This document shows positions 2,138 through 59,199 of a stretch of 59,435 nt of DNA, piece after piece. The position numbers and the translations under genes are program-made. Under the pieces are notes generated by a model. It had not been told where the DNA came from, did no database searches, and saw nothing but the letters and a program-made list of their open reading frames with translations. Source of the DNA: a virus; the IMG/VR virus record IMGVR_UViG_3300020401_000018, positions 1-59,435 of that record. One strand, given 5' to 3'. The first letter of the stretch is position 1. Each line of letters opens with the position of its first letter.

Positions 2138-2530
2138 ATGAAATATCACCCAGACTATCCCATCAAACTTAAGCCTGCTAAAAAATATACGCAGGAAGAT
2201 ATAGACAAATTAAAAAAACAAGAGACAGAAGCGGCGGCACAAGCTTATAAAGTATCACGTCGTCTAGGAAAAAGAGATAAAAATCATGCAGAAGCATACG
2301 GTGAGTATTTGAATCACAAAGCAAACTTATCTGAATTAAGAAGATATGAGAGAACAGGTGAGTGGTCTAACAATATGGTTCCAGGAACTAATCAAGAAAT
2401 ATATTACAGAGTGGTGGCTGAAGCGTACGATGATAATGGTAAATTAAAAAGTGCGCCTGAAGGATCTATTGTGGATGGACAAGGAAGAATTATTAACGAT
2501 GGAGATGTATCAAATGGTAACAGAAAATAA
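2138..2530 (+). CDS. Hypothetical charged protein, 130 aa
   Basis: Not recognised. The start at 2138 is chosen because AGGAGAGA lies a few bases upstream; a longer in-frame reading from 2108 would overlap the leader hairpin. The protein is lysine/glutamate rich with a long predicted helix in its first half (about residues 15-75) and a more polar C-terminus. It overlaps the start of the metallophosphoesterase gene by 17 nt, so the two are probably cotranslated. Confidence 0.75.
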   Translation: MKYHPDYPIKLKPAKKYTQEDIDKLKKQETEAAAQAYKVSRRLGKRDKNHAEAYGEYLNHKANLSELRRYERTGEWSNNMVPGTNQEIYYRVVAEAYDDNGKLKSAPEGSIVDGQGRIINDGDVSNGNRK

Positions 2531-3746
2531 AAACTTAGAAGCATTAAATGCTGTAGTAGTTGCGAAAGGAAATAAATCTGAAGCAGCTAAAACTTTAGGC
2601 ATACCCAGAACTACTCTGGTAAGCAGACTAGAAGCGGCTGAAAGAGAGGGGCTGAAACCTTCTGTTAATCCTCCAGATACTCAAGCTGCCTTGATTGAAC
2701 AAAAGATTATATATGATTTACAAATTTCAGAATTAAAAAAACATATACAAGAACTTGCAAAAGAAAATATAACAGCTGAAAATGTACGTAAGATTGTATT
2801 CAAGTTAGAGAAGCATACACCTAAACCACCTAAGTGGTTAGTAAAATCTTCTCCTGCCAAGGGGGCACCTGGAGTTCCTACTTTGTTTTTATCAGATTTT
2901 CACTGGGGTGAAGTAGTTGATCCTGAGTCCATTAATAATCTAAATGACTACAACAATAAAATTGCACAAAAAAGATTAAGAACAACTGTAGAAACCACTA
3001 TTGATCTGTGTACAAATCACATGGTTAATCCTAAATATCCTGGAATTGTAGTAGCTCTAGGTGGCGACATGATCTCAGGCCACATTCATGAAGAGTTAAC
3101 TGAAACAAATGCAGGAACTAATATCGAATGTGTATTAGATTTGTTTGATCATTTAATATGGGCAATTGATTCTTTAGCAGATGTATTTGGTAAAGTATTT
3201 GTACCATGTGCTTATGGTAATCATGGCAGAATGTTTAAACAGTTCAGGCATAAACAAGCAGCAGCTACTAGCTTTGACTGGATGCTTTATCTAATGTTGG
3301 AAAAACATTACAAGAAAGATCCTCGTATTACATTTATGGTTCCTACGGGCTATGATGCTTACTACAAAGTATACAACATAAACTATTTATTAACACACGG
3401 AGATAGATTAGGAGCTAAAGGTGGAGCAGGTATAATAGGGATGCTTGGCCCAGTAGCTAGGGGTGTACAAAAAATAAAGACTGAGTATGCCACGCATAAG
3501 AAACCTATAGATTATGTTATTATGGGACACTGGCATCAGTACATAACTCTTAATGGAATTATAGTGAATGGTTCTTTGAAAGGATACGATGAGTATGCAG
3601 CTAGTTCTAGGTTTGCTTTTGAAATTCCTAAACAAGCTTTGTGGTTTACGCATCCTAAATACGGAGTTACTTTTCAGTTGCCGATACTTTCGGAAACTAA
3701 CACGATAACTAAAACTAAAAATGATTGGGTTCAGTGGGTAAAATAA
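2514..3746 (+). CDS. Calcineurin-like metallophosphoesterase with N-terminal HTH
   Basis: 410 residues from ATG 2514, which has GGAG 9 nt upstream. The N-terminus carries a Fis-type helix-turn-helix (around NKSEAAKTLGIPRTTLVSRL), then a coiled-coil stretch, then a two-metal phosphoesterase domain: SDFHWGE (motif I), GGDMISG (motif II), YGNHGR (motif III), THGDR, and GHWHQ (motif V). Such proteins hydrolyse phosphodiesters or phosphomonoesters; with a DNA-binding helix attached a role on nucleic acid is plausible but not shown. Similar HTH-metallophosphoesterases occur in marine podoviruses. The next small membrane gene overlaps its 3' end. Confidence 0.85.
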   Translation: MVTENKNLEALNAVVVAKGNKSEAAKTLGIPRTTLVSRLEAAEREGLKPSVNPPDTQAALIEQKIIYDLQISELKKHIQELAKENITAENVRKIVFKLEKHTPKPPKWLVKSSPAKGAPGVPTLFLSDFHWGEVVDPESINNLNDYNNKIAQKRLRTTVETTIDLCTNHMVNPKYPGIVVALGGDMISGHIHEELTETNAGTNIECVLDLFDHLIWAIDSLADVFGKVFVPCAYGNHGRMFKQFRHKQAAATSFDWMLYLMLEKHYKKDPRITFMVPTGYDAYYKVYNINYLLTHGDRLGAKGGAGIIGMLGPVARGVQKIKTEYATHKKPIDYVIMGHWHQYITLNGIIVNGSLKGYDEYAASSRFAFEIPKQALWFTHPKYGVTFQLPILSETNTITKTKNDWVQWVK

Positions 3747-42647: not shown

Positions 42648-42702
42648 TGTCGTGTTTCCTATCAAGTCGGTAGGGTTAATTAAATAAATAAAAGAGGTGT
42701 TT

Positions 42703-44151
42703 ATGTTTAAATTAGACTATATATACTTCAGACGATTATTTAATAAATTGTGGAAAAAAGAAATATTTTACAATCAGTTTTCTGATAAATATTATTTTTC
42801 TGCATATATTAAATCGTATGTAAATGATAATAATACCCATCTTGATTATTACAAAGATGATGTTATGGGTCATTTCAGAACATACAATCAAGCTGAAGAA
42901 TTTTTTGATGAATTAAGGTCATTAAAAAATAAGATGTATCGTTTGTTAGTTGCAAAAAATGTTTTCGTAGGTGACTTTGGTATGGAGTATGTTCCATCTG
43001 ATGCTCCACTATGTAAACTATATCGAGCAGTTGACGATCTTGTTGATTATTTCAATGACAACAAATTTGAATTCTACAATCTTGCAGAATGTTCGTGTTG
43101 TGGCGAGGTTTGTGGATATGATGATACATTCTCAGCTTACAATGGAGATGAAACCGTAGGCGAGTGTTGTCAAGGCCAATACAGCTATTGTGATGAAGCC
43201 GATACCTATTTCAGAGATGATGACTATGAATCTTGGGAACAATACCAAGAACCATCTGACGAGGATTATGATTCAGGTTTTGAGGGTGTATATCGGTACG
43301 ATTGTGACCCATTGGATTATTTATACTTCATGCATACTAAATCAGAATCGTCCATACCCCGTCATAAACAAAGATGGTCAGGGCTTGAGATAGAGATGGA
43401 GGCTACGAGCAGATGTCCTGAAGATTTACCATTACAGATACGCAATGTTTTTAAGGATAATTATTGTATCTTCAAAAGTGATGGGTCGTTAAGTCATGGG
43501 TTCGAGCTAGTGTCTGCCCCTTGCACCTTAGCATACCACCGAGAACGAATTGAAGAATTATTTGATTCAGGTGTATTGCGTGATGATGAAGGCAAGGCAT
43601 TTGTCAGGGGTTGGAATACTGATACCGCAGGTATGCACATACATCTTGATCGTAAAATGTTATCATCAGTACAAGTTGGTAAACTGTTAGTGTTTATCAA
43701 TAATGAATTTAACAGATCATTTATTGAGAAAATTGCTGGTCGTTCAGAGACTTTCTACGAGGATTCTGACTGTACTTCCTACGCAGTTATGCGTAAGAAG
43801 AAAATCACAGATGGTGGTCAACGCAATTACAATAAGTATGAAGCGGTCAATCTGGCTCATTCAAGCACAGTTGAATTGAGAATCTTCAGAAGTAATCTGA
43901 CTAAAGATGGAATCATGCGAGCATTGGAGTTTAGCTATGCCCTTGTTGATTTCTTACAACAGAATACCTGCCGAGAATCTGATCAGCATTACAAGGAATT
44001 CTTGAAGTGGTTTAACCGATCACCTCAGAATCGTGCTAGTTATCCATACTTCTATGGTTGGCTAGTTCGTAAAGGTTATCTATCTGGTATACCTTCGAGG
44101 TCTATTACTAGACAATATGACCAAGCGATTGACGCAGTTGTCAATCAATAA
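42703..44151 (+). CDS. Amidoligase-family (COOH-NH2 ligase) enzyme
   Basis: 482 residues from ATG 42703 (AGAGG 5 nt upstream). The first 220 residues form a separate Cys/Asp/Tyr-rich region with CSCCGEVCGYDD, a possible metal site. The rest is a glutamine-synthetase-fold amidoligase: RWSGLEIEMEAT, FKSDGSLSHGFELVSAP, GMHIHLDRKM, YNKYEAVNLAHSSTVELRIFRSN. Such enzymes use ATP to form amide or peptide bonds. It is followed 30 bp later by a class II glutamine amidotransferase, a pairing known from phages and predicted to modify peptides or cell-wall components. Confidence 0.85.
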   Translation: MFKLDYIYFRRLFNKLWKKEIFYNQFSDKYYFSAYIKSYVNDNNTHLDYYKDDVMGHFRTYNQAEEFFDELRSLKNKMYRLLVAKNVFVGDFGMEYVPSDAPLCKLYRAVDDLVDYFNDNKFEFYNLAECSCCGEVCGYDDTFSAYNGDETVGECCQGQYSYCDEADTYFRDDDYESWEQYQEPSDEDYDSGFEGVYRYDCDPLDYLYFMHTKSESSIPRHKQRWSGLEIEMEATSRCPEDLPLQIRNVFKDNYCIFKSDGSLSHGFELVSAPCTLAYHRERIEELFDSGVLRDDEGKAFVRGWNTDTAGMHIHLDRKMLSSVQVGKLLVFINNEFNRSFIEKIAGRSETFYEDSDCTSYAVMRKKKITDGGQRNYNKYEAVNLAHSSTVELRIFRSNLTKDGIMRALEFSYALVDFLQQNTCRESDQHYKEFLKWFNRSPQNRASYPYFYGWLVRKGYLSGIPSRSITRQYDQAIDAVVNQ

Positions 44152-44181
44152 CTTTTAACTTTAGAGAAAGGAAAGTGTGTT

Positions 44182-45051
44182 ATGTGCTTAATTATACAAA
44201 CTGATACACCTAAAAATCTCAATCGAGATTTATTAGAGTGTGCTTACGAAAACAATTCTGATGGCTTTGGACTTATGCTATTCAATCAAGGCAAGGTTCA
44301 TACCCACAAAATTGTACCAAAAACTTTCGCTGATGTAGAAAAAATGTGGAAGTCATACAAGGATATGGACATTCCTATGGCTTTACATTTTAGATTCAAT
44401 ACGCATGGCGAAACTAATCGAGCTATGTCTCACCCATTTCAAGTTCTTAATAAACAAGATCATGGAAGAGATTTATGGCTCATGCATAATGGACCAAACT
44501 TGCCTACACCTATGATTGATAAAGGTAAGTCTGACACCCATCAATTTATCAAGTGGATTATCAAACCACAACTAGCCAACAATCCTAACTTGCTATACAA
44601 TCTTGAATGGCAAGAATCGTTGGGCGAGATGATTGGTACAGATAAGCTAGTGTTCTTAGATGGTAAGACAAAAGAATTTACGATCATCAACTCTGATGAA
44701 GGTAAAGATGTCAAGGGAATTGGGTGGCTATCCAATACCTATTCTATTAGTAGAGGACTTGGGTATAACTATGATGTAGTCAACAATAAGAAATCTGTGA
44801 TTCAATATGGTAAGAAAACTAGCTATGGTGGACTTGCTTGGGACGATTGGCAGTATGGAGATGACGCATACAAATATGATGATATCTATGGTACGGCTTC
44901 TAAACCTGATGAAAATTCATGGTTTAATATCACAGATGAAATGCTTGTGGGGGCAAGTCTCGAGGATATCGAAGATCTGGTTGTCTCGAATCCTCAAGGT
45001 GTAGCCGACTATCTATTTGATCTTTGTGCTTACAGAATGTCAAATAAGTAA
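44182..45051 (+). CDS. Class II glutamine amidotransferase
   Basis: 289 residues with an N-terminal nucleophile: MCLI (Cys2 exposed after Met removal), NNSDGFGLMLF, LHFRFNTHGETNRAMSHPF and LWLMHNGP. These are the glutaminase signature residues, so it releases ammonia from glutamine. There is no synthetase domain in this protein; the amidoligase just upstream is the natural acceptor partner. The C-terminal 90 residues are Asp/Tyr-rich and unique. Ribosome binding site AAAGG. Confidence 0.9.
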   Translation: MCLIIQTDTPKNLNRDLLECAYENNSDGFGLMLFNQGKVHTHKIVPKTFADVEKMWKSYKDMDIPMALHFRFNTHGETNRAMSHPFQVLNKQDHGRDLWLMHNGPNLPTPMIDKGKSDTHQFIKWIIKPQLANNPNLLYNLEWQESLGEMIGTDKLVFLDGKTKEFTIINSDEGKDVKGIGWLSNTYSISRGLGYNYDVVNNKKSVIQYGKKTSYGGLAWDDWQYGDDAYKYDDIYGTASKPDENSWFNITDEMLVGASLEDIEDLVVSNPQGVADYLFDLCAYRMSNK

Positions 45052-45073
45052 TAGGGTATCGCCCCAAAGCATA

Positions 45074-45272
45074 ACACCGAAAGAACACCGATTGAATACC
45101 GATTGGACACGATCTGTCAAGGGGGGCAGATGTAATGATTAGTATGTATTGTCCAAAGATATATACTATATATTGTAATAATAATATATTAATAATCGTA
45201 TATTATATAGCAGTACAGGGGTGTCATACCCCAAATCGTTGCCATTCGGTAATCACTCGGTGCTTGTTCGGT
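45074..45272. repeat. Facing arrays of 11-bp-phased iteron-like boxes (origin or operator candidate)
   Basis: ACCGA at 45076, 45087 and 45098 (exact 11-bp steps, unit about AxACCGATTG), and its complement TCGGT at 45246, 45257 and 45268 (exact 11-bp steps) about 145 bp away. One helical turn between boxes puts all on the same DNA face. The segment between includes an AT-rich stretch that could open. This is the look of a replication origin with iterons, or of an operator set; the gene for a ribbon-helix-helix-like protein lies about 600 bp downstream. Confidence 0.6.
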
Positions 45273-45292
45273 GATATACGAAAAGAAAACTA

Positions 45293-45320
45293 TTGAAAAA
45301 TATTTTATATATGATATAAT
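45293..45320 (+). promoter_or_regulatory. Promoter for structured RNA / small-gene operon
   Basis: TTGAAA (45293-45298), 16-bp spacer, TATAAT (45315-45320). Predicted +1 at 45327, next to the 5' strand of a 9-bp closing stem. The last TCGGT box ends 21 bp upstream of the -35, a usual place for an activator. Confidence 0.75.
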
Positions 45321-45326
45321 ACGAAA

Positions 45327-45655
45327 TTGAAAGCGACAGTTAAAGCCTTCGTTGACTTGGTTTATTGACTGACATAATCAACCTCGCCAAGTACATCATT
45401 GGTAAGACAATGTAGTTTTAATTGAGTGTGGCTACTCAATCGCTTTCATGCCACTAGATACATTTGGTCGAGCGAAACAAGTCGTACTCGTACAGGAGAT
45501 AAGAGCCAAAGAGAAGTGGTGTGGCGAAAGTTTATGTATCTATTTTGCCACAAACCTAACTATGTGTGTGCAGTTAGTTTGAATCTTGGGGGCAACAGTA
45601 TTGCCAAGCGAGTTCTCGTTAGCCAATCGTTGTTACCCCACAATTATGGAGATAA
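45327..45655 (+). ncRNA. Candidate structured RNA, 122 nt core or up to about 330 nt
   Basis: Core: TGAAAGCGA (45328-45336) pairs with TCGCTTTCA (45440-45448); inside are ACTTGG/CCAAGT (45355-45360 with 45387-45392), CATTG/CAATG (45397-45412) and TTGAGT/ACTCAA (45422-45439), together a four-way junction. Downstream further stems: GCCACT/AGTGGT (45450-45520), TGTGGC/GCCACA (45520-45552), CTAACT/AGTTAG (45556-45577), GGCAA/TTGCC (45591-45605) and AGCGA/TCGTT (45607-45620). No tRNA, tmRNA, RNase P or intron signature. The 3' end is not marked by a terminator. Confidence 0.55.
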
Positions 45656-45864: not shown

Positions 45865-46032
45865 ATGGACAAAACTGCTAATCCAAATATTGTCAAGGTA
45901 GGTTTTTTAATTTCGCAGGAAACCTACGAAGAGATGAAACGAATATGCGAACTAAAAAATATGCAAGAGAATAACTTTGTTGAATTAGCAATAGATGATT
46001 TATGTTTCTTGCACAGAAAGATGGAGGCTTAA
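45865..46032 (+). CDS. Ribbon-helix-helix-like small DNA-binding protein, 55 aa
   Basis: A short strand (KVGFLIS) followed by two helices (ETYEEMKRICELKN and NFVELAIDDLCFL) is the MetJ/Arc/CopG pattern. Such dimers bind tandem DNA boxes about one turn apart, which fits the 11-bp-spaced boxes upstream. Starts one base after the previous stop; GGAGG inside its end serves the next gene. Identification is by pattern in a short sequence. Confidence 0.55.
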   Translation: MDKTANPNIVKVGFLISQETYEEMKRICELKNMQENNFVELAIDDLCFLHRKMEA

Positions 46033-48228: not shown

Positions 48229-48462
48229 ATGAAAAAATATAAGAAAAACTATTCAGATAAAGAGATCTTATTAGATCAAGCTTTGGACGAATTAGAATTG
48301 ACAGGCACACTAGATGATATATATCATGATGTATCTGGCAATAATACATTAGATGATTTAGATGATTATGAATATCAACAGGAGCAAGCATATGGCATAC
48401 AATCCAAGAACCTACAATTTATACCGACAGACAGATATATCAAACGCACTAGAAAAGGCTGA
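48229..48462 (+). CDS. Hypothetical 77-aa protein
   Basis: ATG 48229 has AAGGAG upstream (an in-frame reading from 48097 is out of place over the membrane gene). Lys-rich start, then acidic helices (KEILLDQALDELELTG, LDDLDDYEYQQEQ). Unknown. Confidence 0.65.
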   Translation: MKKYKKNYSDKEILLDQALDELELTGTLDDIYHDVSGNNTLDDLDDYEYQQEQAYGIQSKNLQFIPTDRYIKRTRKG

Positions 48463-48709
48463 GAGATATCTAGCAGAGAACGAATCTTCGGTTGTCATAA
48501 AAAGTGACAAGCCTTTTAGTTTGGCCATGCGGTTTGGTAGATACATAAAAGCATTCAAAGAACAGATGAAGAATGTGGAAGATGTAGACGAACGCAAGTA
48601 TGATACACTTATGATAACCCATGATGATGACCAAGTAAAAATTACACATGCATTAGAAGTTGACCAATTAGAATTGTTTGACGAAGCAACTGGAGGTAAA
48701 ATTGAATGA
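48392..48709 (+). CDS. Hypothetical 105-aa protein
   Basis: ATG 48392 with GGAG 7 nt upstream; overlaps the previous gene by 71 nt in another frame. Mixed alpha/beta (ISNALEKAERYLAE, SLAMRFGRYIKAFKEQMKN), acidic end. No family. Confidence 0.65.
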   Translation: MAYNPRTYNLYRQTDISNALEKAERYLAENESSVVIKSDKPFSLAMRFGRYIKAFKEQMKNVEDVDERKYDTLMITHDDDQVKITHALEVDQLELFDEATGGKIE

Positions 48710-53920: not shown

Positions 53921-55003
53921 TTGCAAGTGAGTGAGTTTGCGGTACATAATCGAATCAAGTCTCAGCTTCCTGAGTCTGGGAATCCGTTTGCCATAATTAT
54001 GGATTGTCCTACGACGACAGAAGTTAGGCTTGGTAAGATCAATGTAGGATCTATTCAAACTGTATTAGATCCGATGTTTAAATTTGCTGGCATTGATGTC
54101 AGTAGCGCAATGCTCACTCACGCAATCCAATTAAAACCTGCACAAGATAATTTACAAAGCTTCTTTTACAAGAGAAGCGAATATAAAAATGTTAAAAAAG
54201 AAACAGAGTGGAGATCTACTTTTGCTCCCACTCAGTACGGATATTTAAAACCAGAGTACGAGCAAGATATTAAAAGACTCTGGGAAGAGATAGATAAGTT
54301 TAATCCAAAAGTTATTATAGCTATGGGAGGTGTAGCTCTATGGGCATTGTGTGGTCTAGATAAAGTCGGATCATATAGAGGATCGTTTATTGAAACTTCA
54401 AATAAAAAATATAAAGTTATGCCTACATACAGTCCAGTTGCAGTTCTAAAAAATTATTCTTTTAGGCCAACAGTTTTATCTGATTTAAAAAAAGCTACAA
54501 ATATAAAAAAGATAGATTACATAGAGCGAGAGATATGTATCGAGCCTACGTATGAAGAGGTAAAACAATTCCTATCTTATTGTGAAAGTATGAACACATC
54601 TTACAGTCCGCTTTCATTCGATATTGAAACTGCCAATGATGAGATAACTTGTATAGGCTTTGCTCCACACAAAGCTAAAGCTATGGTTGTTCCATTTAAA
54701 AAAGAAGATGGAAAAGATTTTTATGATTACCACACTGAACTAGCAGTTTGGAAATTAGTTGGAGATATACTAAGCAACCCTGATATTACCAAGGTTGCAC
54801 AGAATCAAACCTATGACGTGTCATGGTTGCGACACATGTACGGCATAGAAGTTCGGGGTACAGTGCATGATACCATGCATGCACAACATGTATTACAACC
54901 CGAACTAGAAAAGAGTTTAGGTTATTTAGGATCTATTTATACGAACGAGGGAGCATGGAAGAATCTAACAAATTTTTCAAAGAGTACGAAAGCAGAGGCA
55001 TAA
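53921..55003 (+). CDS. UDG-like domain fused to N-terminal part of 3'-5' exonuclease (split PolA, part 1)
   Basis: 360 residues (TTG 53921 or GTG 53927). Residues 1-190 resemble uracil-DNA glycosylase family 4/5 (GYLKPEY..DIKRLWEEIDKFNPKVIIAMGGVALWALCG) but the catalytic HPS is replaced by YSP (170-172) and the first motif lacks its acid, so it is probably inactive. Residues 225-350 are a DnaQ-like proofreading domain: Exo I FDIETA (Asp234, Glu236) and Exo II QNQTYD (Asp299). Exo III is missing; it lies in the polymerase gene at 55507. The two proteins must combine for proofreading. Confidence 0.85.
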   Translation: MQVSEFAVHNRIKSQLPESGNPFAIIMDCPTTTEVRLGKINVGSIQTVLDPMFKFAGIDVSSAMLTHAIQLKPAQDNLQSFFYKRSEYKNVKKETEWRSTFAPTQYGYLKPEYEQDIKRLWEEIDKFNPKVIIAMGGVALWALCGLDKVGSYRGSFIETSNKKYKVMPTYSPVAVLKNYSFRPTVLSDLKKATNIKKIDYIEREICIEPTYEEVKQFLSYCESMNTSYSPLSFDIETANDEITCIGFAPHKAKAMVVPFKKEDGKDFYDYHTELAVWKLVGDILSNPDITKVAQNQTYDVSWLRHMYGIEVRGTVHDTMHAQHVLQPELEKSLGYLGSIYTNEGAWKNLTNFSKSTKAEA

Positions 55004-55291
55004 ATGAAACGTCCCCAGTATTTTGCGGCAAAGCCTTTGCAGGACACAGATATAACTGTACACAACGAAATTGAATTATGGAGAGCAGTGTTGGATCAAG
55101 CTTTGCAAGACGTAAGTTACATGGGATTAGATAAAGAGTTTATAAAATATAAAAAAGAAACAGAGGAGTGGTTAATAAATGATCATGAAGATTTTAATGC
55201 AGTGTGTGATTATGCATACCTCGACTCAGATAAAACAAGAGATGAATTTTATTATATAATGGGAGTAGCAAATGATAGACGAAGAAAATAA
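55004..55291 (+). CDS. Small phage protein inserted in the split polymerase, 95 aa
   Basis: ATG follows the previous stop directly. ELWRAVLDQALQDVSYM...EEWLINDHEDFNAVCDYAYLD is a small helical family common in phages, often in replication regions; function unknown. With the DUF3310 gene it separates the two parts of the polymerase. Overlaps the DUF3310 gene by 20 nt. Confidence 0.7.
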   Translation: MKRPQYFAAKPLQDTDITVHNEIELWRAVLDQALQDVSYMGLDKEFIKYKKETEEWLINDHEDFNAVCDYAYLDSDKTRDEFYYIMGVANDRRRK

Positions 55292-55553
55292 TGATCCAGT
55301 AAACTTTCCTTCACATTATAAACAAGGTGGAGTAGAGTGTATTGATGCTATCAAGTCTTGCTTAGGCAATGAGTTTTCATCTTACTTGCAAGGCAATGCT
55401 ATGAAATATTTATGGAGATACGAACACAAAGGTAAACCAATTCAAGATTTAGAAAAAGCTAAATGGTTTATTGAAAAGTTAATTACCTTTGTACAGGAGA
55501 AACAAAATGCAAATAATAAAAAACACAGAGATCTCACAGAAATCACTATCTAA
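55272..55553 (+). CDS. DUF3310 (SaV-like) protein
   Basis: 93 residues with the family signature FPSHYKQGGVECIDAIKSCLG..F..YLQGNAMKYLWRYEHKGKPIQDLEKAKWFIEKLI. Annotated elsewhere as nucleotide-kinase-like, without firm proof. Its last 47 nt overlap the polymerase gene, whose ribosome binding site lies within it. Confidence 0.85.
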   Translation: MIDEENNDPVNFPSHYKQGGVECIDAIKSCLGNEFSSYLQGNAMKYLWRYEHKGKPIQDLEKAKWFIEKLITFVQEKQNANNKKHRDLTEITI

Positions 55554-57060
55554 AGATCAGACATTGTGGGTTTATTGCGGTTTAGACTGCACACTAACTC
55601 ACGAGATATGGACTAAGATAGAAAAAGATTTAGGTAAGAATGATCATGATTATAGGAAAACATATCAATTTGAATTGGATATGTTGAAACCTGCTATGCA
55701 CATGATGTTGAGGGGGTTAAAGGTAGATGAGAAGACAGTAGGCAAACTCAAAGCCCCCCTTGTCTCGTCCCGTGTAAAGCTTGAGCGTATGTTACATTTG
55801 TTTGCTAATGCAGTATGGGATAAAGATCTTAATCATAATAGTCCTACTCAGCTTAAAAGTTTTTTATATGAGTGGTTGGGATTACCGCCAGTTATATCTT
55901 ACGTAAAGGGTAAACAAAAAGTATCTACAGATAAAGAAGCACTCGAGCATTTAATACAAGAGTATCCTAGAGCTAGGCCTTTTTGCAGGACTATACTTGC
56001 GTTAAGAGATATTGACAAGCAGCTAAACATATTGAACTGTAAACGAGATCGTGATGGAAGAGTCAGATGTTCTTTTAAAGTTGCAGGAACTGAGACTGGT
56101 AGATGGGCTAGTTCAGAAAGTCCTTGGGGCACTGGCACTAATTTACAAAATATCACAAAGGATATGCGTGAAATATTTGTACCCGATGGGGACAATGTTT
56201 TATTTTATGCAGACCTAGAGCAAGCCGAGTCGAGAGTAACTGCTTACGTTGCAGGCGATCAGGGGTATATAAATGCTTGCGAAGGAGAAGACTTACACAC
56301 ACAAGTAGTTAAAATGGTGTGGCCAAATATGGGCTGGTCATCTGACCCTGTGCAAAACAGAGAGTTAGCAGACCGTCCGTACATTGGCCACTTCAGTTAC
56401 AGAGACATGTGTAAGCGAGCAGGGCATGGTACTAATTATGGATTGTCAGCCACTTCATTGGGCAGACATCTTAAAATTAAGTTATCTCATGCTACAAGGT
56501 TTCAACTACTTTATTACGGAGGAGTAGTTGCTTTGGCATCTCTTGAGAGATGGCATAAACAGGACAGAGAAGGAGGCTTCCAAGAACTGATTGATGGGGG
56601 CACGGTTCTAGGGTCAGGCCCTTCCTCTCTCGTTCGTATCGAAGGGGCATTCCCTGGAATCCGAAAGTGGCACAGTGCTATTGCTAATCAGCTTAAGGAA
56701 AGTGGTGCGTTAACTACTCCATTAGGTCGTCGCAGACAGTTTTGGGGACGCACGGAAGAAGGCACTACCTTACGCAAAGCAATTGCATATGTGCCACAAT
56801 CTACTATTGGAGATCTATTAAATCTTGGTTTATACAGAGTGTGGAATGAACTTAAAGATGATAACGTAGAGATACTAGGGCAAGTACACGATGCTATATT
56901 GGGACAGTTTCCAAAAGATAAAGCAGATGTAGTTGTTCCTAAAATTTTAAATTGTATGAAGAACCCTCTTGAAGTAAATGGTAGACAAATGATAATACCA
57001 TCAGACTGTGAGATTGGTGTCAATTGGAAGGATATGAAAAAGTATGTTGGTAACAGATAA
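55507..57060 (+). CDS. Family-A DNA polymerase with Exo III motif (split PolA, part 2)
   Basis: 517 residues from ATG 55507 (AGGAG 7 nt upstream; an upstream in-frame reading from 55489 has none). It begins with Exo III YCGLDCT (Tyr23, Asp27), the missing end of the exonuclease at 53921-55003. Polymerase motifs: A, FYADLEQAESR (Asp236); B, KRAGHGTNYG (Lys303, Tyr311) with His307 where E. coli Pol I has Phe762; C, QVHDAI (His461, Asp462). Replicates the phage genome. Overlaps the following oxygenase by 17 nt. Confidence 0.93.
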   Translation: MQIIKNTEISQKSLSKDQTLWVYCGLDCTLTHEIWTKIEKDLGKNDHDYRKTYQFELDMLKPAMHMMLRGLKVDEKTVGKLKAPLVSSRVKLERMLHLFANAVWDKDLNHNSPTQLKSFLYEWLGLPPVISYVKGKQKVSTDKEALEHLIQEYPRARPFCRTILALRDIDKQLNILNCKRDRDGRVRCSFKVAGTETGRWASSESPWGTGTNLQNITKDMREIFVPDGDNVLFYADLEQAESRVTAYVAGDQGYINACEGEDLHTQVVKMVWPNMGWSSDPVQNRELADRPYIGHFSYRDMCKRAGHGTNYGLSATSLGRHLKIKLSHATRFQLLYYGGVVALASLERWHKQDREGGFQELIDGGTVLGSGPSSLVRIEGAFPGIRKWHSAIANQLKESGALTTPLGRRRQFWGRTEEGTTLRKAIAYVPQSTIGDLLNLGLYRVWNELKDDNVEILGQVHDAILGQFPKDKADVVVPKILNCMKNPLEVNGRQMIIPSDCEIGVNWKDMKKYVGNR

Positions 57061-57709: not shown

Positions 57710-57929
57710 CAATAATAAGGATTATCCTTTTACTGTGTACGAAGATAAGAATAAAACATTATGTCACGGTGTAGAGATAGAGGGTCCTTGTAAGATTAGT
57801 CATAAAGAAAGAGACGGTTCTATCTGGCTAGAGACTGAGGCAAAGGTGGTTAAACTAGTTAACATACCTACAGAAAATATTGATTTTAAAAAAATAGGTG
57901 ATATAATAGACATTACATCAGATGAGTAG
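57690..57929 (+). CDS. Hypothetical 79-aa protein
   Basis: Small beta-rich protein (YPFTVYEDKNKTLCHGVEI, SIWLETEAKVVKLVNIP). Overlaps the oxygenase by 20 nt and the helicase by 8 nt. Not recognised. Confidence 0.7.
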   Translation: MKKILINNNKDYPFTVYEDKNKTLCHGVEIEGPCKISHKERDGSIWLETEAKVVKLVNIPTENIDFKKIGDIIDITSDE

Positions 57930-59199
57930 AAACTACAGAGATTTTAGTGAGGCATGTATTGATGCCATAAAGGATAGTCCTATACCTCAGCCTTTTGCTA
58001 GATGGAGTGCACTGAGTGCAGTTGCTGGCGCTATGGGTAGAAGAGTGTGGTATCCTATGGCTAACTATGACATACGTTCAAACTTATTTGTAGTATTGAT
58101 TGCCCCTCCTGGCAGAAATAAATCAGTTAGTTTAATTTTACCTTTTAGTAGAGTGTTTAGTAGACTTACTACACCAGTGGGTACTAGTGAAGATGATCAG
58201 AATTTTAATTCAGGATTAGACCAGTATGGTTTGCGTAAGTATCCTTTGTACTCTATACAAGATAGAATCACACCAGAAAAACTTGCAGTAGATATGACAA
58301 AGGTCACAAGACTTGACCTAAGAATTGCAACCCCAGCGGCGGATGAGTTTTATGATTCGTCTTTAACTTTAGTTACGTCAGAGTTTGGTACCTTTATGAG
58401 CAGGCATGAAAGATATTTACAGATGTTCTTAACTGATATGTGGGATTCTAAAATGGAATATAGCCATAAGACTAAGACGGCAGGTGAATACGTTATTAAA
58501 GGCCCATGCCTTAATTGGCTAGCTTGTGCAACACCTGAACAATTTGTAGATAATCTGCCTGAAGATGCAAGATCACAAGGTTTGTTATCTCGTATGTTAC
58601 CCATATATTATGAGGGTGATCGCATACCACAGAGTCTTTTGCAAAAAAGAATAAGTGATAATACTGTTAATAATTTAGTACAAGATCTATCTGATATTGC
58701 TAAGATGTATGGGCCTATGCAGTTTGATAAAGATGCATTTGATTACGTAGAAGAAGATATACATAATGGTATACCGCCAGAGCCTACTGATAATCATTTG
58801 TCTGAATATGTACAACGTAGGGTATCTCACTTTATAAAGATTGCTATGGCTGTCTCTGCTTCAAGGAGGGGCACCAGAAAGATAATGAAAGAAGACTGGG
58901 ACACAACAAAAGAAATTATGTTTGACGCAGAAGCGGCTATGCCTAAAGCCTTGGAAGGATTTGGTATGGGTAGGACTGGTCGTATTGCGCACGATATGGT
59001 TACTTGGTTGCATGGTACATTGTTTAATAATGGCAGAAGTCATATGCTTCTTAAGTTATTTAAAAGAGAATTGTTAAGAAAGGTTCCTAACCCTGGAGAA
59101 TTAGAGCAAACTATTAAAGCTATGGAAGATTCTGGTTATATAAAAGTAGAAGGTAATATAGTTTTTCCTGTGGAAAAACGATTTAAATCTGGACAGTAA
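57922..59199 (+). CDS. DUF3987-like replicative helicase/ATPase
   Basis: 425 residues. The opening (ACIDAIKDSPIPQPFARWSALSAVAGAMGRRVWYP) is typical of DUF3987/primase-helicase C-terminal proteins. Walker A is APPGRNKSVS (the loop has Arg-Asn before Lys-Ser in place of the usual Gly), followed by TSEFGTFMSR (Walker B region) and a C-terminal winged-helix-like end (LFKRELLRKVPNPGELEQTI). No primase zinc or TOPRIM domain is present. Placed with the polymerase, so likely the replicative helicase. Confidence 0.8.
   Translation: MSRNYRDFSEACIDAIKDSPIPQPFARWSALSAVAGAMGRRVWYPMANYDIRSNLFVVLIAPPGRNKSVSLILPFSRVFSRLTTPVGTSEDDQNFNSGLDQYGLRKYPLYSIQDRITPEKLAVDMTKVTRLDLRIATPAADEFYDSSLTLVTSEFGTFMSRHERYLQMFLTDMWDSKMEYSHKTKTAGEYVIKGPCLNWLACATPEQFVDNLPEDARSQGLLSRMLPIYYEGDRIPQSLLQKRISDNTVNNLVQDLSDIAKMYGPMQFDKDAFDYVEEDIHNGIPPEPTDNHLSEYVQRRVSHFIKIAMAVSASRRGTRKIMKEDWDTTKEIMFDAEAAMPKALEGFGMGRTGRIAHDMVTWLHGTLFNNGRSHMLLKLFKRELLRKVPNPGELEQTIKAMEDSGYIKVEGNIVFPVEKRFKSGQ

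Follow-up and report, generated by a model that had tools for sequence, protein, structure and literature searches.

The window analysed here is a 59,435-nucleotide stretch of viral DNA (IMG/VR record IMGVR_UViG_3300020401_000018, taken at its full length). It is of complete-phage size, with genes for terminase, portal and capsid. The structural genes point leftward and extend from 41.4 to 5.4 kb, and from 42 kb onwards the early genes point rightward. In relative G001, the genes from opposite ends of the window are adjacent, so the map is probably circular or permuted. The element under study occupies positions 45071-45277. Upstream of it are genes for an amidoligase and a class II glutamine amidotransferase (GAT); downstream are small early genes and those for a PD-(D/E)XK nuclease and a Sak4-like ATPase, followed further on by genes for a uracil-DNA glycosylase/3'-5' exonuclease protein, a family A polymerase and a DUF3987 protein. 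Judged from its sequence, the element is probably the replication origin, or the main one, of a family of uncultivated marine phages. It consists of the following features, listed with the promoter beside it.

45071-45116, plus strand: left arm, with ACCGA at 45076, 45087 and 45098; a fourth, degenerate box has CGA at 45110
45155-45214, no strand: AT core, candidate unwinding element, the least stable 60 bp of the genome
45195-45207, plus strand: conserved core motif ATCGTATATTATA, represented by ATCGTTAATAGGG or ATCGTTTATTAGAGGG in other groups
45218-45232, plus strand: GGGGT-GTCAT-ACCCC hairpin; its exact form varies, but the G-rich tract behind the core is conserved
45232-45277, minus strand: right arm, with ACCGA boxes that read as TCGGT at 45246, 45257 and 45268; a fourth, degenerate box has TCG at 45236
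45293-45320, plus strand: outward sigma-70-like promoter TTGAAA-16-TATAAT (11/12), at a variable distance from the element in relatives

Facing arrays around an easily melted core

The original prediction described three ACCGA and three TCGGT boxes, all in steps of exactly 11 bp. All six boxes are present where they were claimed, and the 11-bp spacing holds within each local triplet; the fourth CGA box found in both arms stands at a 10-bp step from its triplet, and the steps across the family are 10 or 11 bp. The string ACCGA-N6-ACCGA-N6-ACCGA occurs as a single copy per strand in the 59,435 bp and in none of 100 dinucleotide shuffles. No second facing triplet was found in the window at any period from 7 to 24, and 60 shuffled windows contained no facing triplets with 10- or 11-bp steps. 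Together the arms make up an imperfect inverted repeat of 46 bp, 78% complementary and with its centre at 45174; the triplet arrays are the best part of it. Tandem repeats in helical phase, as at iteron origins, are therefore present, and they may bind an initiator.

DNA stability was ranked from nearest-neighbour energies over 60-bp stretches in eight genomes, several of these contigs being fragments. The core is the least stable stretch in six of the eight (the window, G001, G002, G003, G023 and G013), so that an easily unwound AT-rich segment lies beside the repeats, again as at iteron origins. The nearly pure A/T segment had been put at about 70 bp; it is instead about 56 bp long with 7 G/C (45157-45212). 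The GGGGT/ACCCC hairpin was confirmed. The core motif differs by group, reading AATCGTATATTA, AATCGTTTATTAGAGGG or AATCGTTAATAGGG, and no DnaA boxes were found close to the element.

Two clusters of 11-bp repeats beside a promoter are also known from parC of plasmid R1. The boxes might accordingly form a partition centromere that binds a ParR- or TubR-like adaptor, a reading to which the nearby gene for a ribbon-helix-helix (RHH)-like protein in group 1, with weak Arc-like and ORF56-like matches, would lend some colour. We consider it very improbable. Here, the clusters face each other across a melting core, which is conserved and which a centromere does not need; the RHH gene is not conserved alongside the element; and no sign of plasmid-like maintenance was found. 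The window gave no match to a ParA-type ATPase, with all controls positive, and none to ParM, a search in which the controls were silent.

Conservation across relatives

To gather relatives, the GAT and Sak4 proteins as well as the core and box sequences were used as queries, and a non-redundant set was formed of 27 of 47 full-length elements, differing by >8%. The 27 share one layout: left array, AT core, G-rich tract and right array. What stays constant in the boxes is CGA, which recurs at every helical turn (10 or 11 bp). When the 27 elements are pooled, the distances between pairs of CGA (left) and of TCG (right) peak at 10-11, 21 and 31-32 bp, and of 223 box pairs, 192 fall in phase where shuffling predicts 7.5. 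The original prediction was open to the finding that relatives lack the boxes or space them randomly; boxes, helical phasing and facing orientation were all observed to be kept.

The two arms also vary together. Left arms align better with the reverse-complemented right arm of the same genome than with those of other lineages (mean score 31 versus 20), and this co-variation is significant by permutation among nine representatives (p = 6.5e-4). A single protein reading both arms would explain the match, as would sequence exchange between the arms.

The element is present once per genome, and lies between GAT and the replication-side genes in 78 of 82 overlapping loci, the other four all being G013. 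The amidoligase/GAT pair itself (42697-45051 in the window) was also observed in phages with a different replication module. These GAT-bearing phages (G010, G011 and G014) have neither the element nor Sak4, polymerase and DUF3987 genes of this type; the element thus accompanies the Sak4/PolA/DUF3987 replisome. Since shared ancestry could give the same pattern, this link supports an origin but does not decide for it.

A single copy at a fixed genomic position would suit any master cis site, including one for packaging, recombination or DNA anchoring. Such a role is distinctly unlikely: the gene for the small terminase subunit lies 3.7 kb off, on the opposite strand, no recombinase was found among the scanned genes, and the known precedent for an AT melting core with phased, facing iterons is the replication origin.

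Matches to the full pattern outside the family were set aside. Among 16 in bacterial genomes, none has both an AT-rich core and the core motif, and they were taken as chance, as were three viral matches (L075, L085 and L089).

The promoter moves, the arrays do not

An outward sigma-70-like promoter is found in most members of the element family, and the one predicted just beyond the arrays in the window was confirmed. Its proximity suggests a different function for the boxes, namely an operator or enhancer of the early promoter at 45293, where a regulator bound to both arrays, perhaps looping the AT segment, would switch the second early operon. The promoter is close downstream in nearly all members, the right array comes near the -35 box in groups 2 and 4, and direct repeats phased at 10-11 bp fit some transcription factors too. 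However, the boxes do not overlap the -35 or -10 sequences, only one such site exists per genome, and the distance from array to promoter ranges from about 10 to about 100 bp while that from array to core is constant.

This contrast is clearest in one clade with a near-identical promoter. Measured from the core, four members (L223, L225, L228 and L243) have it at +102, and elsewhere it is found 50-80 bp further out: at +152 in L234, +179 in L248 and L237, and +182 in L251. In the two at +179, an inserted tRNA-Cys gene (L248:3243-3316; L237:145-218) separates the right array from the early promoter. In most of this clade, the right-array boxes remain at +51, +62, +73 and +83, the exceptions being one box that is not an exact TCG in L248 and L237 and one shifted box in L243. 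Because the promoter moves while the distances between arrays and core are fixed, arrays and core form a unit that is independent of promoter position. Fixed placement relative to the promoter, expected of an operator, is not seen, and on sequence comparison this is our strongest evidence against a plain operator. The operator alternative, which the original prediction had named, is weakened by these close relatives, and we now regard it as unlikely.

A structured RNA beyond the promoter had also been predicted, as a possible primer. The leader behind the promoter (45327-45655) contains several hairpins, and its stems covary across group 1, with seven compensatory pairs; parts of it are missing in some relatives, indicative of a modular build. 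A search against Rfam gave nothing at the gathering threshold, the sole weak match being a plant microRNA model far under the cut-off. The structure is thus supported, but the priming role is not. The leader is confined to group 1, the coding region in groups 2, 3 and 4 beginning almost at the promoter, and because the AT core is upstream of the promoter, which reads away from it, the transcript cannot prime through the core. The leader RNA was therefore rejected as a part of the origin. The promoter may still aid opening, since transcription leaves negative supercoils behind it (PMC5043065).

Taken as an origin, the element would work as follows. A phage-encoded initiator would bind both arms, on each of them as a multimer along a single helix face, and once bound would melt the AT core. 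The two mirrored arms would load two helicase rings, leading to bidirectional theta replication, and transcription from the outward promoter would assist, as it would leave the core in its wake negatively supercoiled. The original proposal is thus supported in part: the conserved phased boxes, the least stable core and the association with a replisome speak for an origin, whereas the primer RNA and the RHH protein as binder are not supported.

Initiator candidates and replication genes

The leading initiator candidate, as we infer it, is the DUF3987 helicase.

57922-59199, plus strand: DUF3987 protein, putative initiator and replicative helicase, with a Walker-A-like APPGRNKS and, by eye, a helix-turn-helix-like C terminus

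A profile of this protein searched against PDB sequences gave nothing beyond a marginal MCM match (E about 0.9), so its role is one that we infer. Two further small proteins (48392-48706 and 55004-55288) are conserved in all groups, and their predicted structures have no fold match in the PDB. The RHH-like protein (55 residues, 45865-46032) shows weak sub-threshold matches to Arc-like repressors and to the ORF56 plasmid copy-control family. It had been proposed for gel shift with the boxes, but was found only in the closest relatives and is not conserved with the element.

Other genes of the window have features of their own. Uracil-DNA glycosylase and PolA-type 3'-5' exonuclease domains are joined in one protein (53921-55003), the polymerase domain being separate (55489-57060). 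An exonuclease-like protein (2451-3746) has a Fis-type helix-turn-helix match close to its N terminus. Among cultivated phages, the replisome comes closest to that of Caulobacter phage Kuura (polymerase 36%), with 119X and others at about 25%. Of these cultivated replisome relatives, 119X, Kuura and Mel-JY34 were scanned for facing arrays, and none were found. The terminase is closest to those of pelagiphages HTVC027P and HTVC023P (40%), whose annotated replication genes differ in kind. No DNA similarity to any isolate phage was found.

Comparison with known origins

In phage-inducible chromosomal islands (PICIs), two iteron sets flanking one AT-rich region constitute a proven origin (PMC6092414), an organisation described as common to PICIs and present in no other known bacterial replicon. 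Two iteron sets around one AT-rich region are found here as well. Like the origins of PICIs and of Staphylococcus aureus pathogenicity islands (SaPIs) (PMC6092414; PMC7581432), the element is a single site accompanied by a phage-type AAA+ helicase module. Unlike them, it belongs to complete phages rather than satellites, its iteron core is CGA once per helical turn, its AT core contains a conserved motif, and the candidate helicase is DUF3987, encoded 12.7 kb away, and not a PICI Rep. Since it is carried by a complete phage, at a distance from the helicase gene, rather than directly 3' of rep in a satellite island, we do not class it as a PICI origin. It is conceivable, and we put it forward tentatively, that the PICI-like layout is the origin of a widespread family of uncultivated marine phages, with the DUF3987 AAA+ protein serving as both initiator and replicative helicase and two facing rings assembling on the mirrored CGA iterons.

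The lambda origin and iteron plasmids (PMC5043065) likewise have helically phased initiator repeats beside an AT-rich unwinding element, and opening aided by transcription, as may occur here. In lambda and most iteron plasmids, however, the repeats are one-sided and about 17-22 bp long, whereas the boxes here are short and face each other from both sides. The Cch2 origin of the staphylococcal cassette chromosome SCCmec (PMC7581432) resembles the present system in its short 5-nt iterons, which are bound by an initiator helicase with a C-terminal DNA-binding domain (DUF3987 would be the putative counterpart here), and in an adjoining A-family polymerase gene; it differs in that just three direct-repeat iterons are described, without mirrored arms.

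Several points weigh against an origin. The boxes are degenerate in G013, though the core and a promoter-like sequence persist there. The core ranks only third in stability in G006 and falls outside the top five in G024. Shared ancestry alone may explain why element and replisome occur together. The gene for the candidate helicase is distant, whereas a PICI origin follows rep, and the initiator is represented by candidates only. GC skew, proposed as a check, lends no independent support: the minimum of the cumulative curve, near 41.8 kb, tracks the change of gene direction and is gone at 4-fold sites, so the skew is uninformative.

Significance

Few origins have been mapped among tailed phages, and none was found described for this marine phage type in the literature searched. 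If the element is an origin, the gain would be a well-delimited 200-bp site of which 27 natural variants exist, together with a few candidate initiators and a layout that phage satellites have in common with it. If DUF3987 acts on this PICI-like layout, phage and satellite replicons would be linked, and DUF3987 proteins would gain a defined site of action. With a known origin, metagenomic coverage could also serve as a readout of replication in these uncultivated phages.
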